NCBI RefSeq assembly: GCF_900117415.1
Contig: NZ_FPEI01000006.1
Location: 992,001 to 1,056,000, forward strand
Source of the DNA: Hyphomicrobium sp. CS1BSMeth3
GTDB taxonomy: Bacteria > Pseudomonadota > Alphaproteobacteria > Rhizobiales > Hyphomicrobiaceae
DNA: 64,000 bases
Reading direction: 5' to 3'
Part shown: one piece after another, positions 506 through 62,118 of the stretch
How the letters are laid out: the number at the start of each line of letters is the position of its first letter
How positions within the stretch are numbered: the first letter of the stretch is position 1
Notes under the pieces: generated by a model
What the model saw: the letters and a program-made list of their open reading frames with translations, nothing else
Databases searched by the model: none
Told to the model about the DNA's origin: nothing
Position numbers and translations under genes: made by a program

Positions 506-575
506 CTAGGCGTCGGACCTCGAATGCGACCCGTGGCCTGTATCGGGTTCGTAGTCGGATTTGAGGCCGAGACAC
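506..575. repeat. Decayed half copy of the double-hairpin repeat (family 1, copy D)
   Basis: The left arm, from GCGTCGGACCTCG onward, matches the first hairpin of the complete copy at 55617-55781 for more than 20 bases. The right arm (about 553-575, reading GTCGGATTTGAGGCC) still pairs partly but has several mismatches. The second hairpin is absent. It lies in the 164-bp gap between soxB and the ccdA-like gene. Confidence 0.75.
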
Positions 576-603
576 CCTGGATCCATAGAGTTCGGAGCGC
601 GCC

Positions 604-12970: not shown

Positions 12971-13417
12971 TTAGACGTGGGCCTCGATCTGCTTCGTGGC
13001 GCCATTGCCGATCTGTACAGACCGCGGCTTCAGCCGCTCCGGCACGTTGCGCACGAGGTCGACATGGAGCAGGCCGTCCTGAAGGTCGGCGCCCGTCACC
13101 TCGACATGATCGGCGAGCTGGAACCGGCGCTCGAAAGCGCGGGTCGCGATGCCGCGATGGAGGAACTGACGCTCTTTGTCGTCGGCCTTCTTCTCACCCT
13201 TCACAGTGAGGGACTGCTCTTTCACCTGGATGTCGATCTCGTCCTTGGTGAAGCCGGCGACGGCCATGGTGATTCGATAGGCGTTATCGGCCTTACGCTC
13301 GATATTGTACGGGGGGTAGGTGCTCGCCTCGCCCTCGACGCCGCCATCCAGAAGCTGGAACAGGCGGTCAAAACCAACGGTCGAACGGTAGAGGGGGGCA
13401 AAATCGAAGGGTCGCAT
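12971..13417 (-). CDS. Small heat-shock protein, Hsp20/IbpA type
   Basis: A 148-residue alpha-crystallin-type chaperone that holds unfolding proteins. The N-terminus MRPFDFAPLYRSTVGFDRLF is typical of alphaproteobacterial IbpA-class proteins. The crystallin domain contains YRITMAVAGFTKDEIDI and the A/GLxDGLLHVDL signature near residue 115, followed by PERLKPRSVQI. The ATG at 13417 is chosen because GGAGGA stands just upstream and the frame above it lacks family similarity. Control is visible in the DNA: an RpoH-type promoter at 13514-13541 and a ROSE-like leader. The gene is isolated from gatB by a double-hairpin repeat. Confidence 0.95.
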   Translation of the reverse strand: MRPFDFAPLYRSTVGFDRLFQLLDGGVEGEASTYPPYNIERKADNAYRITMAVAGFTKDEIDIQVKEQSLTVKGEKKADDKERQFLHRGIATRAFERRFQLADHVEVTGADLQDGLLHVDLVRNVPERLKPRSVQIGNGATKQIEAHV

Positions 13418-13507
13418 AGGGTTAGTCCTCCATAGGAAGCGACTGTCCGGCGCGCCTGCCCAACAGGGCCAGGCACTGCTTCGTGCACCCGCGCTGCGGC
13501 GTGCACA
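13418..13507 (-). promoter_or_regulatory. ROSE-type RNA thermometer in the hsp20 leader
   Basis: The last hairpin before the ATG is formed by GUCGCUUCCUAUGGAGGAC (+ strand 13425-13443). UCGCU fits the ROSE motif UYGCU and lies opposite AGGA of the Shine-Dalgarno sequence, with the unpaired G expected in ROSE helices. Upstream in the leader are a strong stem with GCCTG...CAGGC arms and a GTGCAC...GTGCAC stem, giving the multi-hairpin layout of ROSE elements, which are known in front of rhizobial small heat-shock genes. Confidence 0.82.
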
Positions 13508-13513
13508 CCCAGG

Positions 13514-13541
13514 ATTTAGGGTGCGTGCGGGGGCTTTCAAG
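13514..13541 (-). promoter_or_regulatory. RpoH (sigma-32) promoter of hsp20
   Basis: On the minus strand CTTG (13541-13538) and CCTAAAT (13520-13514) are 17 bases apart. This fits the alphaproteobacterial heat-shock consensus CTTG-N17/18-CYTATNT at all but one position. The -35 box sits inside an inverted repeat GGGGGC-N7-GCCCCC (13530-13548). Confidence 0.78.
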
Positions 13542-13575: not shown

Positions 13576-13745
13576 CTAGTGTCCCGATTCCGAAGTTCGC
13601 CCTACCTCGATGCTGGGGGCCAGCGCGAACTTCGGAATCAAAAGGGACACTAGAATCATAATGTTTCTAGTGTGATTCAGATCGAGAAATTCGCTTGGTA
13701 CAGTGCGGCGAGATGTGGCGAATTTCTCGATCTGAATCACACTAG
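13576..13745. repeat. Double-hairpin repeat (family 1, copy A)
   Basis: Hairpin 1 (13576-13653) has a 10-bp outer stem CTAGTGTCCC/GGGACACTAG and a 15-bp inner stem GATTCCGAAGTTCGC, with AAAA unpaired on the right side only. A 13-base linker AATCATAATGTTT follows. Hairpin 2 (13667-13745) has perfect 28-bp arms starting CTAGTGTGATTCAGATCG. It ends one base before the gatB stop codon. Confidence 0.95.
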
Positions 13746-13746
13746 C

Positions 13747-15231
13747 TCAGATGCCGAGCTTGGCCTTCAGGATATCGTTCACGGCCTGCGGATTGGCCTT
13801 CCCGCCGGACTGCTTCATGACCTGGCCGACGAACCAGCCGAGCATGGAGGGTTTGGCTTTGACCTGCTCGACCTTGTCGGGATTGGCGGCGATGATCGCG
13901 TCGACCGCCGCTTCAATGGCGCCCGTGTCCGTGACCTGACGCATACCGCGCTTTTCGACGATCTCGGCCGGGTCACCGCCTTCGGTCCAGAGGATCTCGA
14001 AGAGGTCCTTCGCGATCTTGCCCGAGATCGTGCCGTCCTGGACGAGGCGCACGAGCCCGCCGAGCTGAGCCGCCGCGATCGGCGAGGTCGCGATCTCCTT
14101 GCCTTCCTTGTTCAGGCGGCCGAACAGCTCGTTGATCACCCAATTGGCGGCGAGCTTGCCGTCCGTTCCCTTGGCAACAGCCTCGAAGAAATCGGCACTC
14201 TCGCGCTCGGCGACGAGCACGCTCGCATCGTACGCCGAGAGCCCGTAGACCTTCATGAAGCGCGCACGCTTCTCGTCCGGCAGCTCGGGAAGATCCTTGG
14301 CGAGTCCGTCCACCCAGCTCTGCTGGAGCTCCAGCGGCAGCAGGTCGGGATCGGGGAAGTAGCGGTAGTCGTGCGCCTCTTCCTTCGAGCGCATGGAACG
14401 CGTCTCGCCCTTCGCGGCATCGAAGAGGCGCGTCTCCTGGTCGATCTTGCCGCCATCCTCGAGAATGCCGATCTGACGGCGCGCTTCGGCTTCGACGGAC
14501 TGACCAATGAAGCGGATCGAGTTGACGTTCTTGATCTCGCAGCGCGTACCGAGCGGCTCGCCCGGCCGCCGCACGGAGACGTTCACGTCCGCGCGCAGAT
14601 TGCCCTTTTCCATGTCGCCGTCGCACGTGCCGAGATAGCGCAGAATCGTACGCAGCTTCGTCACGTAAGCCTGCGCCTCCTTCGACGAACGCAGATCCGG
14701 CCGCGACACGATCTCCATGAGCGCGACGCCGGAGCGGTTGAGATCGACGTAGGAATAGTCAGGGTGCTGGTCGTGGATGGACTTGCCCGCGTCCTGCTCC
14801 AGATGCAGGCGCTCGATGCCGACAGTCTTGCTCTCGCCATCGACGTCGATCTCGACTTCGCCCTCGCCGACGATCGGGCTCTTGTACTGGCTGATCTGAT
14901 AGCCCTGCGGCAGGTCGGGATAGAAGTAGTTCTTGCGGTCGAACACGCTGTCGAGATTGATCTTCGCCTTGAGCCCGAGGCCCGTGCGCACAGCCTGCGC
15001 GATGCATTCCTCGTTGATCACCGGCAGCATACCGGGCATCGCCGCATCGACGAGGCTCACATGATCGTTCGGCTCGCCACCGAAAGCCGTCGAGGCGCCC
15101 GAAAACAGCTTGGCCTTGCTCGCCACCTGGGCGTGGACCTCCATGCCCACGATCACCTCCCAGTCACCCGTCGCGCCCGCGATCAGGTTGGAGGCCTTGC
15201 CCTTGGCTTTCTCTTTGACCGTGTCCTGCAT
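13747..15231 (-). CDS. gatB: Aspartyl/glutamyl-tRNA(Asn/Gln) amidotransferase subunit B
   Basis: GatB is the kinase/transamidase subunit of GatCAB, which converts Glu-tRNA(Gln) or Asp-tRNA(Asn) to the amide form. The 494-residue protein begins with a short extension and then [13 protein letters not shown], the family N-terminus. Metal/phosphate motifs ([30 protein letters not shown]) and the C-terminal YqeY-like tail are present. The start at 15231 is set by the family alignment; upstream in-frame sequence is repeat DNA. gatA and gatC are not in the window. Confidence 0.97.
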
Positions 15232-15299: not shown

Positions 15300-15557
15300 G
15301 GCGTCCCGGCTCGCGCCTGCGGCGCGTGTGGGGCCGCATGCCTCTGGCATGCCTTCGGCATGACCCCACGCCCCAATCGGGGGACACCCCCAAACCCCCG
15401 TCTTTTATGGACTTGGAGCGAGCCGAAAGCTCAACACAATCCCCTCTCCCCGCGTGCGGGGAGAGGGCTAGGGTGAGGGGCGGCGGCATACACCAACGTC
15501 CCACAAGCTCCCGCCCCTCATCCCGACCTTCTCCCCGCATGCGGGGAGAAGGGGAAG
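15300..15557 (+). repeat. Family 2 repeat, R1 plus R2
   Basis: Fills the 327-bp gap between gatB and prfC. R1 (about 15300-15426) carries short hairpins (GGCATGCCTTCGGCATG) and then GGGACACCCCCAAACCCCCG and TCTTTTATGGACTTGGAGCG. R2 (15440-15557) has two dyads, CCCTCTCCCCGCGTGCGGGG and TTCTCCCCGCATGCGGGGAG, around TGAGGGGCGG...CCGCCCCTCA. It ends one base before the prfC stop. Confidence 0.85.
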
Positions 15558-17379: not shown

Positions 17380-17611
17380 TTCTCCCTCTCCCCATGGTCT
17401 TGAATGGGGAGAGGGTCGGGGTGAGGGGCGGCGGCAAACGTCGAGGTTTGAACAAGCTCCCGCCCCTCATCCTAACCTTCTCCCCGTATAGGACGGGGAG
17501 AAGGGACCTGTCGTGCCAGCGGCTCGCTCCAAGTCCATAAATGACGGGGGTTCGGGGGTGTTCCCCCGATTGGGGTGTGGGGCGAAAGCCCCGCTCGCGC
17601 GAAACGCGCGA
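17380..17611 (-). repeat. Family 2 repeat, R2 then inverted R1
   Basis: Most of the 421-bp gap between prfC and the MFS gene. R2 (17380-17506) has the dyads CTCTCCCC...GGGGAGAG and CTTCTCCCCGTATAGGACGG with its partner arm. R1 (about 17515-17611) is read on the minus strand and ends at the MFS stop codon. The remaining part next to prfC (17191-17379) holds only weak promoter-like boxes for prfC. Confidence 0.82.
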
Positions 17612-37444: not shown

Positions 37445-37692
37445 CCGATGCGGCTTCGGCCCGCAAATCGCGCCTTTGGCGCGAACGAGGCTGCCGCCTC
37501 GCGCTCCGCCCGGGGGACACCCCCGAACCCCCGTCTTTTTGAGATTTGGAGCGAGCCGCGAGCGCCTCTCATCCCCTCTCCCCGTCCTTACGGGGAGAGG
37601 GTTAGGGTGAGGGGCGGCGGCAACCGCTAACGCCGCGCAAGTTCCCGCCCCTCATCCCGACCTTCTCCCCGTGAAGAACGGGGAGAAGGGGA
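37445..37692 (+). repeat. Family 2 repeat, R1 plus R2
   Basis: Occupies most of the 321-bp gap between ettA and the amidase gene. R1 (to about 37560) has CGCGCCTTTGGCGCG and GGGGGACACCCCCGAACCCC, then CCGTCTTTTTGAGATTTGGA. R2 (37570-37692) carries CTCTCCCCGTCCTTACGGGG and CTTCTCCCCGTGAAGAACGG with their second arms. Confidence 0.85.
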
Positions 37693-43756: not shown

Positions 43757-43985
43757 TTCGCGTCTTCGACGCGAGCGAGGCTAGCCTCGCGCTCCACCGG
43801 GGGACACCCCCGGAGCCCCCGTCTTTTATGGATTTGGAGCGAGCCGCAGGCACGACAGATCCCTTCTCCCCGTTCTTCACGGGGAGAAGGTTAGGATGAG
43901 GGGCAGGAATTTGCGCGACGTCGACGTATGCCGCTGCCCCTCACCTCGCCCCTCTCCCCATTCAAGACAATGGGAAGAGGGAGAA
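43757..43985 (+). repeat. Family 2 repeat, R1 plus R2
   Basis: Fills most of the 349-bp gap between the convergent GMC and SDR genes. R1 (43757-43850) has CGTCTTCGACG, GGGGGACACCCCCGGAGCCC and TCTTTTATGGATTTGGAGCG. R2 (43860-43985) has TTCTCCCCGTTCTTCACGGG and a weaker second dyad CTCTCCCCATTCAAGACAAT. Confidence 0.85.
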
Positions 43986-52183: not shown

Positions 52184-52434
52184 GATCGCGCCTTTGGCGC
52201 GAACAGGGCTGTCGCCCTATGACCCACATCGTGCCCAAGGCGCGTGTCTTCGACACGACGGACACCCCCACACCCCGTCTTTTATGGATTTGGAGCCCAC
52301 CGCTGGCGCCACCATGTCCCTTCTCCCCGTCCTTCACGGGGAGAAGGTTAGGATGAGGGGCGGCGGCATACGCTAACGCCGCGCAAGTTCCCGCCCCTCA
52401 CCCTAGCCCTCTCCCCGCGCGCGGGGAGAGGGGA
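52184..52434 (+). repeat. Family 2 repeat, R1 plus R2
   Basis: Most of the 353-bp gap between merR and sseA. R1 (52184-52310) shows CGCGCCTTTGGCGCG, CACACCCCGTCTTTTATGGA and TTTGGAGC. R2 (52317-52434) has TTCTCCCCGTCCTTCACGGG and CTCTCCCCGCGCGCGGGGAG around the GAGGGGCGG/CCGCCCCTC inversion. Confidence 0.85.
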
Positions 52435-55616: not shown

Positions 55617-55781
55617 CTAAAGCGTCGGACCTCGAATGCGACCCACGGTTCGGGTTGGGCTCAAAGTCGCATTCGAGGTCCAAAGACGCTTTAGATTCAA
55701 TGGTTCTAAAGCAACTTTGGACTTGAAATTCGCTCCCTGCCCGGCCTCGAGGTGAGGCGAATTTCATGTCCGTTGCTTTAG
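55617..55781. repeat. Double-hairpin repeat (family 1, copy C)
   Basis: Hairpin 1 (55617-55694): outer stem CTAAAGCGTC/GACGCTTTAG and 16-bp inner stem GGACCTCGAATGCGAC, with AAA unpaired on the right. Linker ATTCAATGGTT (55695-55705). Hairpin 2 (55706-55781): 28-base left arm starting CTAAAGCAACTTTGGACTTG and a 25-base right arm. The layout matches copies A and B but the stem sequences differ. Confidence 0.92.
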
Positions 55782-55791
55782 GGGGCGCGCC

Positions 55792-56529
55792 ATGACGACT
55801 GACCCACACCGCTATGAGCTACCGGAGCCCGGAGGCTGGCGCTGGCTCGCCGCGTCGGTTCATCTTTTCACGGCGCTGGGCATTGTGTGTGCTTTGCTCG
55901 CCGCCCACGCGCTCCTCGACCGCGCCTACGAGACAGCTTTCGCGTGGCTCGGCATTGCCCTCATCATCGACGGCATCGACGGGGCCTTCGCCCGTGCCCT
56001 CGATGTGAAGCGACGGCTGCCGCGCTTCTCCGGCGAGAAGCTCGACCAGGTCGTGGACTACGTCACCTACGTCTTCGTGCCGGCGCTGGCGCTGCAACTT
56101 GGCGGGCATCTGGATGGCCTCTGGGGCGGCATCCTGGCGAGCCTCATCTTGCTCTCGTCGCTCTACCACTTCTGCGACAACGGCAACAAAGCCGACGACC
56201 ATTGCTTCGTCGGCTTTCCCGCCATCTGGAACATCGTCGCGTTCTACATCTTCGCGTTCGCCCTGCCGGGATGGGCGGTGAGCATTCTCGTGCTCGTCTG
56301 CGTGGCACTGACCTTCGTCCCCATGCGCTGGCTCCACCCCATGCGCGTGAAAGCCCTGCGGCCCTTGAATCTCGCCATGAGTGGGGTCTGGGCTTTTGCC
56401 GCTGTCTGGACCGTGGCGACCGGATTTCCCGCGGGACCGGGGGCCATGGCCGCGCTCGGTCTGGTGGCGGTATATGGCGTTGGCCTCTCGGTGCTCTGGC
56501 CATTGCTGGGCGGGGATGAAGCCCCCTGA
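55792..56529 (+). CDS. pcs: Phosphatidylcholine synthase
   Basis: A 245-residue membrane enzyme that condenses CDP-diacylglycerol with choline to form phosphatidylcholine and CMP. The CDP-alcohol phosphotransferase motif appears in the Pcs variant: DGIDGAFAR (60-68), then Gly81, Asp85 and Asp89 (GEKLDQVVDYVTYV). HLFTALG at the N-terminus is characteristic of Pcs. About eight membrane helices. Pcs is typical of host-associated and methylotrophic alphaproteobacteria. No Shine-Dalgarno better than GGGGG is present; a family 1 repeat ends ten bases before the ATG. Confidence 0.95.
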   Translation: MTTDPHRYELPEPGGWRWLAASVHLFTALGIVCALLAAHALLDRAYETAFAWLGIALIIDGIDGAFARALDVKRRLPRFSGEKLDQVVDYVTYVFVPALALQLGGHLDGLWGGILASLILLSSLYHFCDNGNKADDHCFVGFPAIWNIVAFYIFAFALPGWAVSILVLVCVALTFVPMRWLHPMRVKALRPLNLAMSGVWAFAAVWTVATGFPAGPGAMAALGLVAVYGVGLSVLWPLLGGDEAP

Positions 56530-59962: not shown

Positions 59963-60030
59963 AAGTCGCGCCTTCGGCGCGAGTAGGGCCACAGGCCTAC
60001 AACCCGTTCGCCCCCATCTTTTATGACTCT
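59963..60030 (+). repeat. Family 2 repeat, degenerate R1 module
   Basis: CGCGCCTTCGGCGCG, AGGGCCACAGGCCTA and CCATCTTTTATGACTCTGAG. The last part runs into the stop codon of mutA. Confidence 0.65.
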
Positions 60031-61919
60031 GAGATGCCCAACGCCTTGTGCAACGCGCCGAGCGTTTCGAGTGCGTCGGCGCCCGCATAGACGAACGCAT
60101 CCACGCCGGCCGCCTGCAGCGCAGCCTCGAGATCCTTCGGCCGGCCAGCAAGATATACGTGCTGGGCACCGGCCGATTTCAGTGCGCTTGCGACGGCCCC
60201 GCCAATATCGGCATAGGTCGCGTCGGCTCCGCAGATGCAGGCAATGGCGGCACCACTTGTCTTGAACGTAGCGGCAGCCCCCTCTGCGCTCAAGAGCGGC
60301 GCTGATTGGGCGACGGCAATGCCGCCTGCCGCGAGGAAATTCGCGATCCATGTCGCGCGCGCGCCGTGGCTCGCGAGATCGCCGACACAGGCAAGGAAGA
60401 CTTTCGCGGGCGCGCCGGTACGCGCGGCGTGCGCCTCGGCTCTGGCGCGAAGTGCCTCGAAGGGCTCAGCAAGCCGCCGTGCGACAAGCGGCCTGGTGCG
60501 AACGATGCCGCTGTCGGCGGAAGCCGATGCCTCCGGCCACGGCGTGACTTTCACACCGTCGTCGCCCAGCTTCGGGAAGGCCGACACGCCGGTGATTTCC
60601 ATGCGCCCCGTCGCGATCTGCTTCGCGCGCGCCTCTGCAACCTTGGCGATGTCGTCCTGGATGCGGCCACTGGTCAGCGCCGCCGCCATTCCACCCGCAG
60701 CCTCGATCTCCTGGAAGAGCTTCCAGGCCGTCGCGGCGAGGTCTGCCGTCAGGCTTTCGATGGCAAAGCTGCCGCCGGCCGGATCGAGCACGCGCCCGAG
60801 GCCGCTCTCCTCCTGCAGCACGAGATGCGTATTGCGCGCCATGCGCCGCGCGAAGCCGTCGGGCTGTCCGAGCGCCCACGTGAAGGGGAGGACGGCAATC
60901 GCCTGCGCCCCGCCTATGGCCGCCGTCGCGCAGGCGATCGTCGTGCGCAGCATGTTCACCCAGGGATCGTGCTTCGCCATCATGCGCAGCGACGTCTCGG
61001 CGCCGAACGTCATCTGAGCGACGGCACCACCGGCGCCGCAGGCTTCGGCAACTTGCCAGACGAGACGACGCACAGCGCGCAGCTTGGCGAGACCCATGAT
61101 CTGGTCGGCATCGATGGCGAGATTGATCGCGATCTTGGGCAGCGCTTCTGCCGGCGCAATTCCTGCTGCATCGAGCGCGCGCAGGTAGGTAGTGAGCGTG
61201 GCCAGCACGATCGCCAGCTCCTGCGCCTCGCTGGCTCCGGCAGCATGATAGGGATGGCCGTCGGCGACGAGGGCCGTCAGGTGTGGCGCGCCCAGCGCGC
61301 CCTTGGCCAGAGCCGCGGCCTCGGCGAGCGCGGCATCGAGCGGCTGTCCCAGGGATCCGCTCCGCGCCAGGGTGCCGAGCGGATCGGCATTGAGGGCGGC
61401 GAGGCGAGCCTTGTCGGAAATGTTCGCGGCCCGCCACAGCTCCGCCAGGCTTGCCGCCGCTTTCGCAGTTGCCTCGCCCGCATCCAGCGCAATGGGGCAC
61501 ACGTCCAGCATGACGCCCTTGAGCGCGATGCCAAGCGTCCCGGCATCCGGCGCGAGGCCGCACCGTCCCGGCCCTGCGATCTGCAACTTGAGAGAGGTCG
61601 TGCCCCCTTCGAGATCTTCAAGGATCGCCGCGTTGGCCCTCGCCGCGTCCGTCTCGGCATAGATCTGGCGGATATCCCAGGGCGGCGTGATCGTGGCGGC
61701 ACTGGCCCCGCGGAGGTAGGGGGCGGCCCCCGGCTGCTGCCCCGAGAGCCCCTGCGGCGCGTCCGCGCGGCCATAAACCGGCGCTATTCGGAGCCCGTCA
61801 GCGGTCCGGGCAACCAGCCGGCGCTCGAAATCCGCGCCCTTGAGGGCCTTTTCCACCAGCGCCAGCCATTGCGCCCGCTCGGGGACGGAAAACCCTTCCA
61901 TCAGGGACAGTTCGGTCAT
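60021..61919 (-). CDS. mutA: Methylmalonyl-CoA mutase small (beta) subunit
   Basis: A 632-residue MutA. The TIM barrel covers about residues 40-450 (APYLRGASAATITPPWDIRQ; a long Ala-rich helical region with ANISD). The C-terminal B12-like domain (about 500-632) lacks the DxHxxG cobalamin ligand, as expected for the non-catalytic beta subunit. In the active enzyme it pairs with MutB to interconvert succinyl-CoA and methylmalonyl-CoA. In most alphaproteobacteria mutB follows directly; here the next gene is phzF on the other strand, so mutB must lie elsewhere or be absent. Start from the family alignment. Confidence 0.9.
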   Translation of the reverse strand: MTELSLMEGFSVPERAQWLALVEKALKGADFERRLVARTADGLRIAPVYGRADAPQGLSGQQPGAAPYLRGASAATITPPWDIRQIYAETDAARANAAILEDLEGGTTSLKLQIAGPGRCGLAPDAGTLGIALKGVMLDVCPIALDAGEATAKAAASLAELWRAANISDKARLAALNADPLGTLARSGSLGQPLDAALAEAAALAKGALGAPHLTALVADGHPYHAAGASEAQELAIVLATLTTYLRALDAAGIAPAEALPKIAINLAIDADQIMGLAKLRAVRRLVWQVAEACGAGGAVAQMTFGAETSLRMMAKHDPWVNMLRTTIACATAAIGGAQAIAVLPFTWALGQPDGFARRMARNTHLVLQEESGLGRVLDPAGGSFAIESLTADLAATAWKLFQEIEAAGGMAAALTSGRIQDDIAKVAEARAKQIATGRMEITGVSAFPKLGDDGVKVTPWPEASASADSGIVRTRPLVARRLAEPFEALRARAEAHAARTGAPAKVFLACVGDLASHGARATWIANFLAAGGIAVAQSAPLLSAEGAAATFKTSGAAIACICGADATYADIGGAVASALKSAGAQHVYLAGRPKDLEAALQAAGVDAFVYAGADALETLGALHKALGISES

Positions 61920-61953: not shown

Positions 61954-62118
61954 CTAGCGCCCCGCTTCCGAAGTTCGCCAGGGCTCGCTGCTGGTGGCGA
62001 GCGAACTTCGGAAGCAAAAGGGGCTCTAGAATCATAGGCTTACTAGCGTGATTCAGATCGAGAAATTCGCTCCGTACCCGGCAACGGGCGTTGGCGAATT
62101 TCTCGACCATCACGCTAG
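61954..62118. repeat. Double-hairpin repeat (family 1, copy B)
   Basis: Hairpin 1 (61954-62029): outer stem CTAGCGCCCC/GGGGCTCTAG and perfect 15-bp inner stem GCTTCCGAAGTTCGC, AAAA unpaired on the right. Linker AATCATAGGCTTA. Hairpin 2 (62043-62118): 28-base left arm starting CTAGCGTGATTCAGATCG and a 25-base right arm. It lies in the 335-bp divergent region between mutA and typA; the rest of that region shows no other feature I could name. Confidence 0.93.

Follow-up and report, generated by a model that had tools for sequence, protein, structure and literature searches.

A double-hairpin repeat of Hyphomicrobium that is very probably a non-autonomous element of the IS630/Tc1-mariner type

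Introduction

Among published repeats, the CcrM-associated CIR repeats of Caulobacter (Chen and Shapiro, 2003) look closest to the element described here, by description rather than by sequence. In the passages of PMC2229807 that deal with them, CIR repeats are alphaproteobacterial and intergenic, have 5'TA termini, and consist of two long inverted-repeat arms and a linker, with GANTC at the loop of a repeat of about 110 bp; these passages name no mechanism of mobility. The present element agrees with them in host class, intergenic position, TA termini and two-armed plan. However, it is 163-172 bp long, with additional forms of 130-133 bp, its GANTC sites lie mainly in stems and linker, and one of its two types (type B) is not enriched in GANTC.

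RUP of Streptococcus pneumoniae, a MITE of IS630-Spn1, is likewise non-coding, present in about 100 copies, flanked by TA and bounded by IS630-like ends, and its movement in trans has been inferred. It measures 107 bp, has 9-bp terminal repeats and forms one stem-loop, and no double hairpin with linker-facing bulges figures in its description in the passages concerned (PMC2229807). MITEs derived from IS630 are already known, and the double-hairpin form would be a variant of them; we found no double-hairpin IS630 MITE in the open-licence literature. REP sequences and BIMEs share inverted palindrome pairs and high copy number with our element, but according to excerpts of PMC3733652 they are 20-40 bp long, carry a GTAG or CGTC tag and depend on a Y1 transposase, an enzyme for which the present genome gave no match. 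For ISY100, passages of PMC2170065 report that TA is duplicated on insertion and that ends of 24 bp are probably sufficient.

Here we analyse a repeat of about 165 bp found in a window of 64,000 nucleotides (positions 992001-1056000) within the 6.02-Mb genome of Hyphomicrobium sp. CS1BSMeth3. Sequence comparisons indicate that it is very probably a non-autonomous MITE of the IS630/Tc1-mariner type that is mobilised in trans.

Results

Architecture of the element in the window

Two hairpins round a short linker make up the element. In hairpin 1 (H1) the outer stem is 10 bp and the inner stem 15-16 bp long, and the right arm contains an AAA or AAAA bulge; hairpin 2 (H2) usually carries a one-sided 3-nt bulge in its left arm, TCA in type A and TTT in type B. 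Because the H2 bulge is on the left arm and the H1 bulge on the right, both face the linker. Three copies and one decayed solo hairpin lie in the window (Table 1).

An earlier note, written from the letters of this window, had described a blueprint shared by the three copies, and we find that blueprint and the anatomy of hairpin 1 exactly where it placed them. Its account of hairpin 2, with a 28-base left arm, holds for the features and their positions; it missed that a left-arm bulge is the norm, and a perfect 28-bp H2 is confined to copy 1. It also overlooked the decayed type-B hairpin at 506-580. Among the 97 unique type-A copies, copy 1 alone has such a perfect H2, because TCA recurs, complemented, in the opposite arm.

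Table 1. Double-hairpin copies, solo relic and IS630-like ends within the window.
Feature	Position	Strand	Parts or sequence	Setting	Score or remark
Copy 1, type A	13576-13745	+	H1 13576-13653; linker AATCATAATGTTT 13654-13666; H2 13667-13745	gatB (13747-15231, minus) and hsp20 gene (HSP20 match within 12974-13540, minus; Pfam)	R1 175.5 bits
Copy 2, type B	55617-55781	+	H1 55617-55694; linker ATTCAATGGTT 55695-55705; H2 55706-55781	Upstream of CDP-alcohol phosphatidyltransferase gene (55792-56529, plus; Pfam)	R1 147.8 bits
Copy 3, type A	61954-62118	+	H1 61954-62029; linker AATCATAGGCTTA 62030-62042; H2 62043-62118	Methylmalonyl-CoA mutase gene (60021-61919, minus) and typA/bipA (from 62255, plus; Pfam)	R1 159.6 bits
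Decayed type-B hairpin 1, solo relic	506-580	+		Upstream of DsbD-type gene (604-1404; Pfam)	R1 23.1 bits over 506-610, E 2.7e-4; read by eye
Copy 1, left outer arm (resembles an IS630 left end)	13576-13600	+	CTAG; GTGTCCCGATTCCGAAGTTCGC after TA		19/22 with left end of G006 IS630
Copy 1, right outer arm (resembles the region of an IS630 right end)	13721-13745	-			Bulge filled in this copy by an extra TGA

The motif GAAATTCGC occurs seven times in the window against 0.88 expected, a number reached in none of 100 shuffles. For the neighbouring gatB, the nearest named relatives belong to a MAG of the Rhizobiales (88%) and to an uncultured Hyphomicrobium (87%). A different family of dispersed palindromes, CCCCTCTCCCCG...GGGGAGAGGGTTAGGGTGAGGGGCGG with 27-28 nt between the arms, is found at five places in the window (15441-15553, 17397-17494, 37580-37682, 43881-43959 and 52337-52432).

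Copy number and types

The core pattern of H2, GAAATTCGC-N15-35-GCGAATTTC, is present at 99 places in the genome, and the same pattern read backwards at none. Of 40 genomes searched, the genome under study included, 12 contain it. The 11 relatives that have it, out of 39, include all four genomes of the same genus (4, 15, 6 and 32 places). Genome G006 has 66 places, and in most of the matches listed there the loops are nearly identical, which suggests a recent spread.

From the matches listed in three same-genus genomes we read 112 full copies, 49 in the genome under study, 22 in G002 and 41 in G004. Type A, with CTAGTGTCCC ends, accounts for 98 of these (97 unique, one G004 copy having been read twice) and type B, with CTAAAGCGTC ends, for the other 14. 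The left-end tetramer is CTAG in 89 copies and CTAA in 14. Individual hairpins measure 76-79 nt, and no transposase gene lies inside the element.

Empty sites and insertion target

In G002 the site of copy 3 is occupied. G003, G004 and G001 have an empty site there, which reads CTAG at the exact place in G004 and G001 and GTAG in G003. Copy 1 is absent from the matching place in all of G001-G004, base-exactly in G004, with no length change in G003 and with a looser match in G002 and G001. Copy 2 is missing from the same four genomes, the closest match being that of G003 and the others looser. Only the copy-3 site, common to the genome under study and G002, is filled by the same element with both flanks shared among the 112 copies. 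A few pairs of copies share a single flank, and in one further region G002 has a copy of type B and G004 a copy of type A (L238, L277).

A nested insertion points to the same target. At locus L035 a type-A element has its inner CTAG split precisely by one of type B, so that CTAG has become C-TA-[AAGCG...CTT]-TA-G. We infer a two-base duplication of TA, while formally the junction would also fit an element that carries one TA with it. The empty sites and this nested insertion support mobility of the element. According to the title of Tenzen and Ohtsubo (1991), cited in PMC2170065, IS630 prefers the TA of CTAG as its target. In the window as a whole CTAG is rare, with 31 occurrences against 67 expected from trimers; nine of the 31 fall inside copies of the repeat, the relic included, and the repeats themselves thus provide landing sites.

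Geometry across the order and class

We built a covariance model (R1) from 35 copies; the outer stem of H1 and the bulge of H2 are part of it, and the inner stem of H1 is not. R1 matches at least 18 of 150 genomes of the order including the genome under study (at least 17 of the 149 others; 17 of the 131 good genomes, own included; 14 of the 90 genera) and at least 20 of 385 genomes of the class, again including its own (at least 19 of the 384 others; 18 of 315 good ones). The genome counts are lower bounds because 19 candidates per genome were scored for the order and seven for the class.

The plan that recurs is an outer stem of about 10 bp, a bulge of 3-4 nt toward the linker, an inner stem of 15-16 bp, a loop of about 22 nt and a linker of about 13 nt. 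Twenty-four chosen copies from 14 other genomes have outer stems of 8-11 bp, a total length of 163-172 and 3-4-nt bulges in both hairpins without exception; the inner stem is 15-16 bp in 21 (H1) and 22 (H2) of them, and the linker is 12-14 nt in 20. Since R1, the model that picked these copies, has the outer stem of H1 and the bulge of H2 built into it, the H1 inner stem is the independent part of this comparison; under the lax mismatch rules of the parse, stem borders may shift by about one base. The arm sequences are strongly different despite the like geometry. The class-level loci share the plan and include short-loop forms of 130-133 bp (L357, L361); 19 of them were viewed, with L345 left out and L360 and L362 appearing decayed. 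As the geometry recurs while the letters change, the conserved shape itself seems to matter.

Related elements also occur on plasmids. Near-full-length matches to L284 were found in 9 of 12 plasmid records (Roseibium and Labrenzia) and to L288 in 7 of 14 (Martelella, Rhizobium, Ochrobactrum, Agrobacterium, Aminobacter and Sphingobium), and the plasmid copies of Martelella (L368) and Roseibium (L369) were read. BLAST against plasmids returned no match for window copy 1 or L347, and eight records for L344, none covering 80% of it. R1 had no match in 80 gatB loci, a search that covered gatB neighbourhoods alone.

Arm pairing, bulges and internal symmetry

When the two loops of a type-A consensus compiled by hand, that of H1 and that of H2, are aligned with each other, the inverted orientation scores 5.5, a value matched by 11 of 5000 shuffles, and the direct orientation -2. 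This inverted match, together with the related arms, indicates that the element is an inverted dimer of one unit of about 76 nt. Single hairpins (solos) occupy several sites in several genomes (the genome under study, G002, G003 and G004). Five of six type-B H2 solos bear the left-terminal 10-mer (CTAAAGCGTC) fused to the H2 body and hence have kept one left and one right terminus.

Pairing in the arms is well preserved. Type-A copies diverge from their consensus by 2.9% in the arms and by 19.3% at unpaired positions, and script-based counting of pairs gave 53 compensated cells for type A (shuffled mean 4.5, maximum 11) and 18 for type B (mean 9.4, maximum 14), counts that are inflated by the relatedness of the copies. 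In the mixed alignment the inner stem of H1 went unrecognised by RNAalifold, apparently owing to a one-base difference between the two types at that place.

One explanation of this pairing is that arms and geometry are upheld mainly by template switching during replication, without selection on shape. Template switching is known to homogenise arms and invert the spacer, as the abstract of PMC8604942 describes, and the 97 unique type-A copies include three with an inverted H1 loop, four lost bulges and one filled bulge (that of copy 1). Three loci of the genome under study, L027, L208 and L215, have the H1 loop inverted relative to the arms and have lost a bulge, in H1 in L027 and L215 and in H2 in L208, which looks like template switching inside the hairpin. 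Template switching probably acts on these hairpins, but it should also remove their bulges, and these are retained in 95 of 97 (H1) and 94 of 97 (H2) unique type-A copies and in both hairpins of all 24 copies from other genomes, the latter picked by a model that contains the H2 bulge. That the bulge is near universal argues that the bulged shape is needed, and we regard template switching as an improbable main cause.

Slightly less probable again is an RNA element with a host function in ending, stabilising or processing transcripts, its structure being kept by selection. The low divergence of the arms and the excess of compensated cells are what such a function predicts; they carry less weight in view of the inflation just mentioned, and conserved arms are equally expected of ends that bind a transposase. 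A host function also accords poorly with sites that are nearly all unshared among the three same-genus genomes, and no Rfam family matches above its gathering score within the window.

The sole shared site bears on the same question, since three base pairs are changed there on both sides. Between copy 3 and its counterpart in G002 (L159), the arms differ at 12 of 100 positions, the loops at 18 of 45 and the flanks at 31 of 286. Two rare paired states co-occur only in these two copies among the 98 of type A, so that shared ancestry is favoured; given the divergence of the loops relative to the flanks, independent insertion or conversion may have occurred, and over its whole length copy 3 is nearest to L243 (84%), not to L159. 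The same comparison of loops with flanks led us to reject the paired changes as proof of selection after insertion.

Type-A copies contain 2.7 sites for CcrM methylation (GANTC) each; shuffled copies have 0.64, and the flanks have 0.19 in every 165 bp. Type B has 0.57 against 0.68 when shuffled. Control of mobility by methylation is possible for type A.

Element ends and candidate transposases

The ends of the element resemble those of IS630 elements in other genomes. An IS630 element in G006 (L051), whose transposase has DDE_3 and HTH domains, ends in TA-GTGTCCTGATTCCGAAG and TA-GTGTCCTGATCGATAAAT. Its left end agrees with the type-A left arm at 19 of 22 positions and its right end with the consensus type-A right arm at 17 of 22, whereas 2000 shuffles, scored like these matches as the best of 14 arms, reach at most 15. 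The IS630 ends of Bradyrhizobium CB82 agree with the type-A left and right arms at 18 and 16 of 22 positions. A second type of element, whose left arm was read in G167, G103, G064 and Roseibium, agrees in that arm with an IS630 end of G157 (L294) at 20 of 22 positions (shuffles at most 14) and with one of Rhizobium jaguaris (L367) at 21 of 22, a figure given without shuffles. Right arms fit IS630 ends less well than left arms do, and the right end of the G157 element, with 13 of 22 at best, stays inside the shuffle range. The IS630 end with the best fit to the left arm is the one downstream of the transposase gene in G006, G157, Roseomonas marmotae, Bradyrhizobium CB82 and R. jaguaris; L365 (Komagataeibacter) was left out of the end-match counts. 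We found no insertion sequence with type-B ends.

The elements L051, L294 and L367 thus have in common with our repeat CTAG sites and either both ends (type A) or the left end (second type). They differ in being about 1.16-1.17 kb long and carrying a transposase gene, and in L051 the arms turned up as simple ends alone, with no inverted inner copies. At L051 (1330-2504 and onward), two IS630 copies lie head to tail and share one CTAG junction. Another IS630 element, that of G160, was rejected as the mover of the MITEs in G160, because its ends match the arms at 12 of 22 positions at most across ten near-identical copies; all nine copies with anchored ends sit in CTAG. At L319, one of these copies lies in a CTAG adjoining GGAATCGGACCA, which resembles an end of the double-hairpin element of G160.

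Searches of the genome under study detected no IS630-type transposase (DDE_3), no DDE_Tnp_1 (PF01609) and no relative of the L051 transposase. Relatives of this last protein were found in 5 of 18 genomes and in none of the other 13, which include the genome under study, and a search for DDE_3 (PF13358) returned nothing in 8 of 11 other genomes with the hairpin core. As no IS630 transposase was detected in the genome, the copies there are probably stranded and are probably remnants of past activity.

The earlier note had taken the repeat for a mobile or REP-like element that a transposase might move in trans. Empty sites for all three copies and the nested insertion support mobility, and a transposase in trans gains indirect backing from the match of the ends to IS630 elements of other genomes. 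The checks it had proposed gave the 99 core places, well beyond the loci of the window, the empty sites for each of the three copies, and R1 matches in further genomes of the order and class; neither of the outcomes that the note had named as refuting its reading was observed.

The REP-like reading is not supported. A RAYT, a Y1 tyrosine transposase, would copy palindrome pairs as single-stranded hairpins, and paired inverted palindromes in many copies, intergenic in all three window instances, are what one would expect from it. Yet Y1_Tnp (PF01797) had no match in the genome under study, in a search that was positive in 5 of 14 control genomes; CTAG is divided on insertion and two of its bases appear twice; the ends fit those of DDE-type IS630 elements; and the hairpins, at 76-79 nt with CTAG or CTAA ends, are unlike the short GTAG-tagged REPs of PMC3733652 as excerpted there, so that a REP or BIME is very unlikely. 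A MITE of another DDE family that inserts at CTAG-like sites, such as the IS5 type, some of whose elements have similar targets, is just as improbable, because no DDE_Tnp_1 was detected in the genome, in none of 23 loci from relatives (L055-L077) do the arms form the ends (L065 has a lone near-match of 11 bases) and IS630 ends fit on both sides.

Discussion

We therefore return to the IS630-type MITE as the best explanation of this repeat. Dispersal, empty sites, the CTAG target, ends that match IS630 elements and a recurring geometry are observed directly, and a mechanism can be proposed from them. The outer 22-25 bp on each side would serve as an IS630 left end and an IS630 right end, and a transposase working in trans would excise the repeat and insert it at the TA of CTAG, with duplication of TA. 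The body would consist of two units of about 76 nt placed head to head round a linker of about 13 nt, each repeating its own end in inverted orientation with an insertion of 3-4 nt, the bulge, on the linker side. Under this model only the outer ends would stand in the cutting register; the inner copies would bind but out of register, and the dimer would accordingly move as a whole.

The role of the bulge in setting the register is a tentative part of this model, somewhat nearer to doubtful than to probable. Against it, solo hairpins with one bulged, out-of-register end occupy several sites, and the type-B H2 solos that have kept both kinds of terminus suggest that such solos have moved, contrary to a strict need for two ends in register.

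A wider reading, which is possible and slightly less secure than the register idea, is that the class harbours a clan of IS630-driven MITEs in which geometry and not letters is conserved. Each member would offer four transposase-binding sites, the outer two in register and the inner two 3-4 nt off, and arms would be exchanged when a lineage switches to another IS630 transposase; the CIR repeats of Caulobacter and Brucella would be short-loop members. If this were true, methylation-linked repeats of the CIR type would gain their missing transposase.

Many bacterial repeats have no identified mover, and for the commonest type here both ends can be assigned to IS630 ends. One two-hairpin geometry with varied arms across a bacterial class makes the shape of a transposition substrate, with its four sites and its bulge, open to test. 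An IS630-type MITE would account for where the intergenic hairpins of Hyphomicrobiales came from, and it suggests a candidate mechanism for CIR repeats as well.
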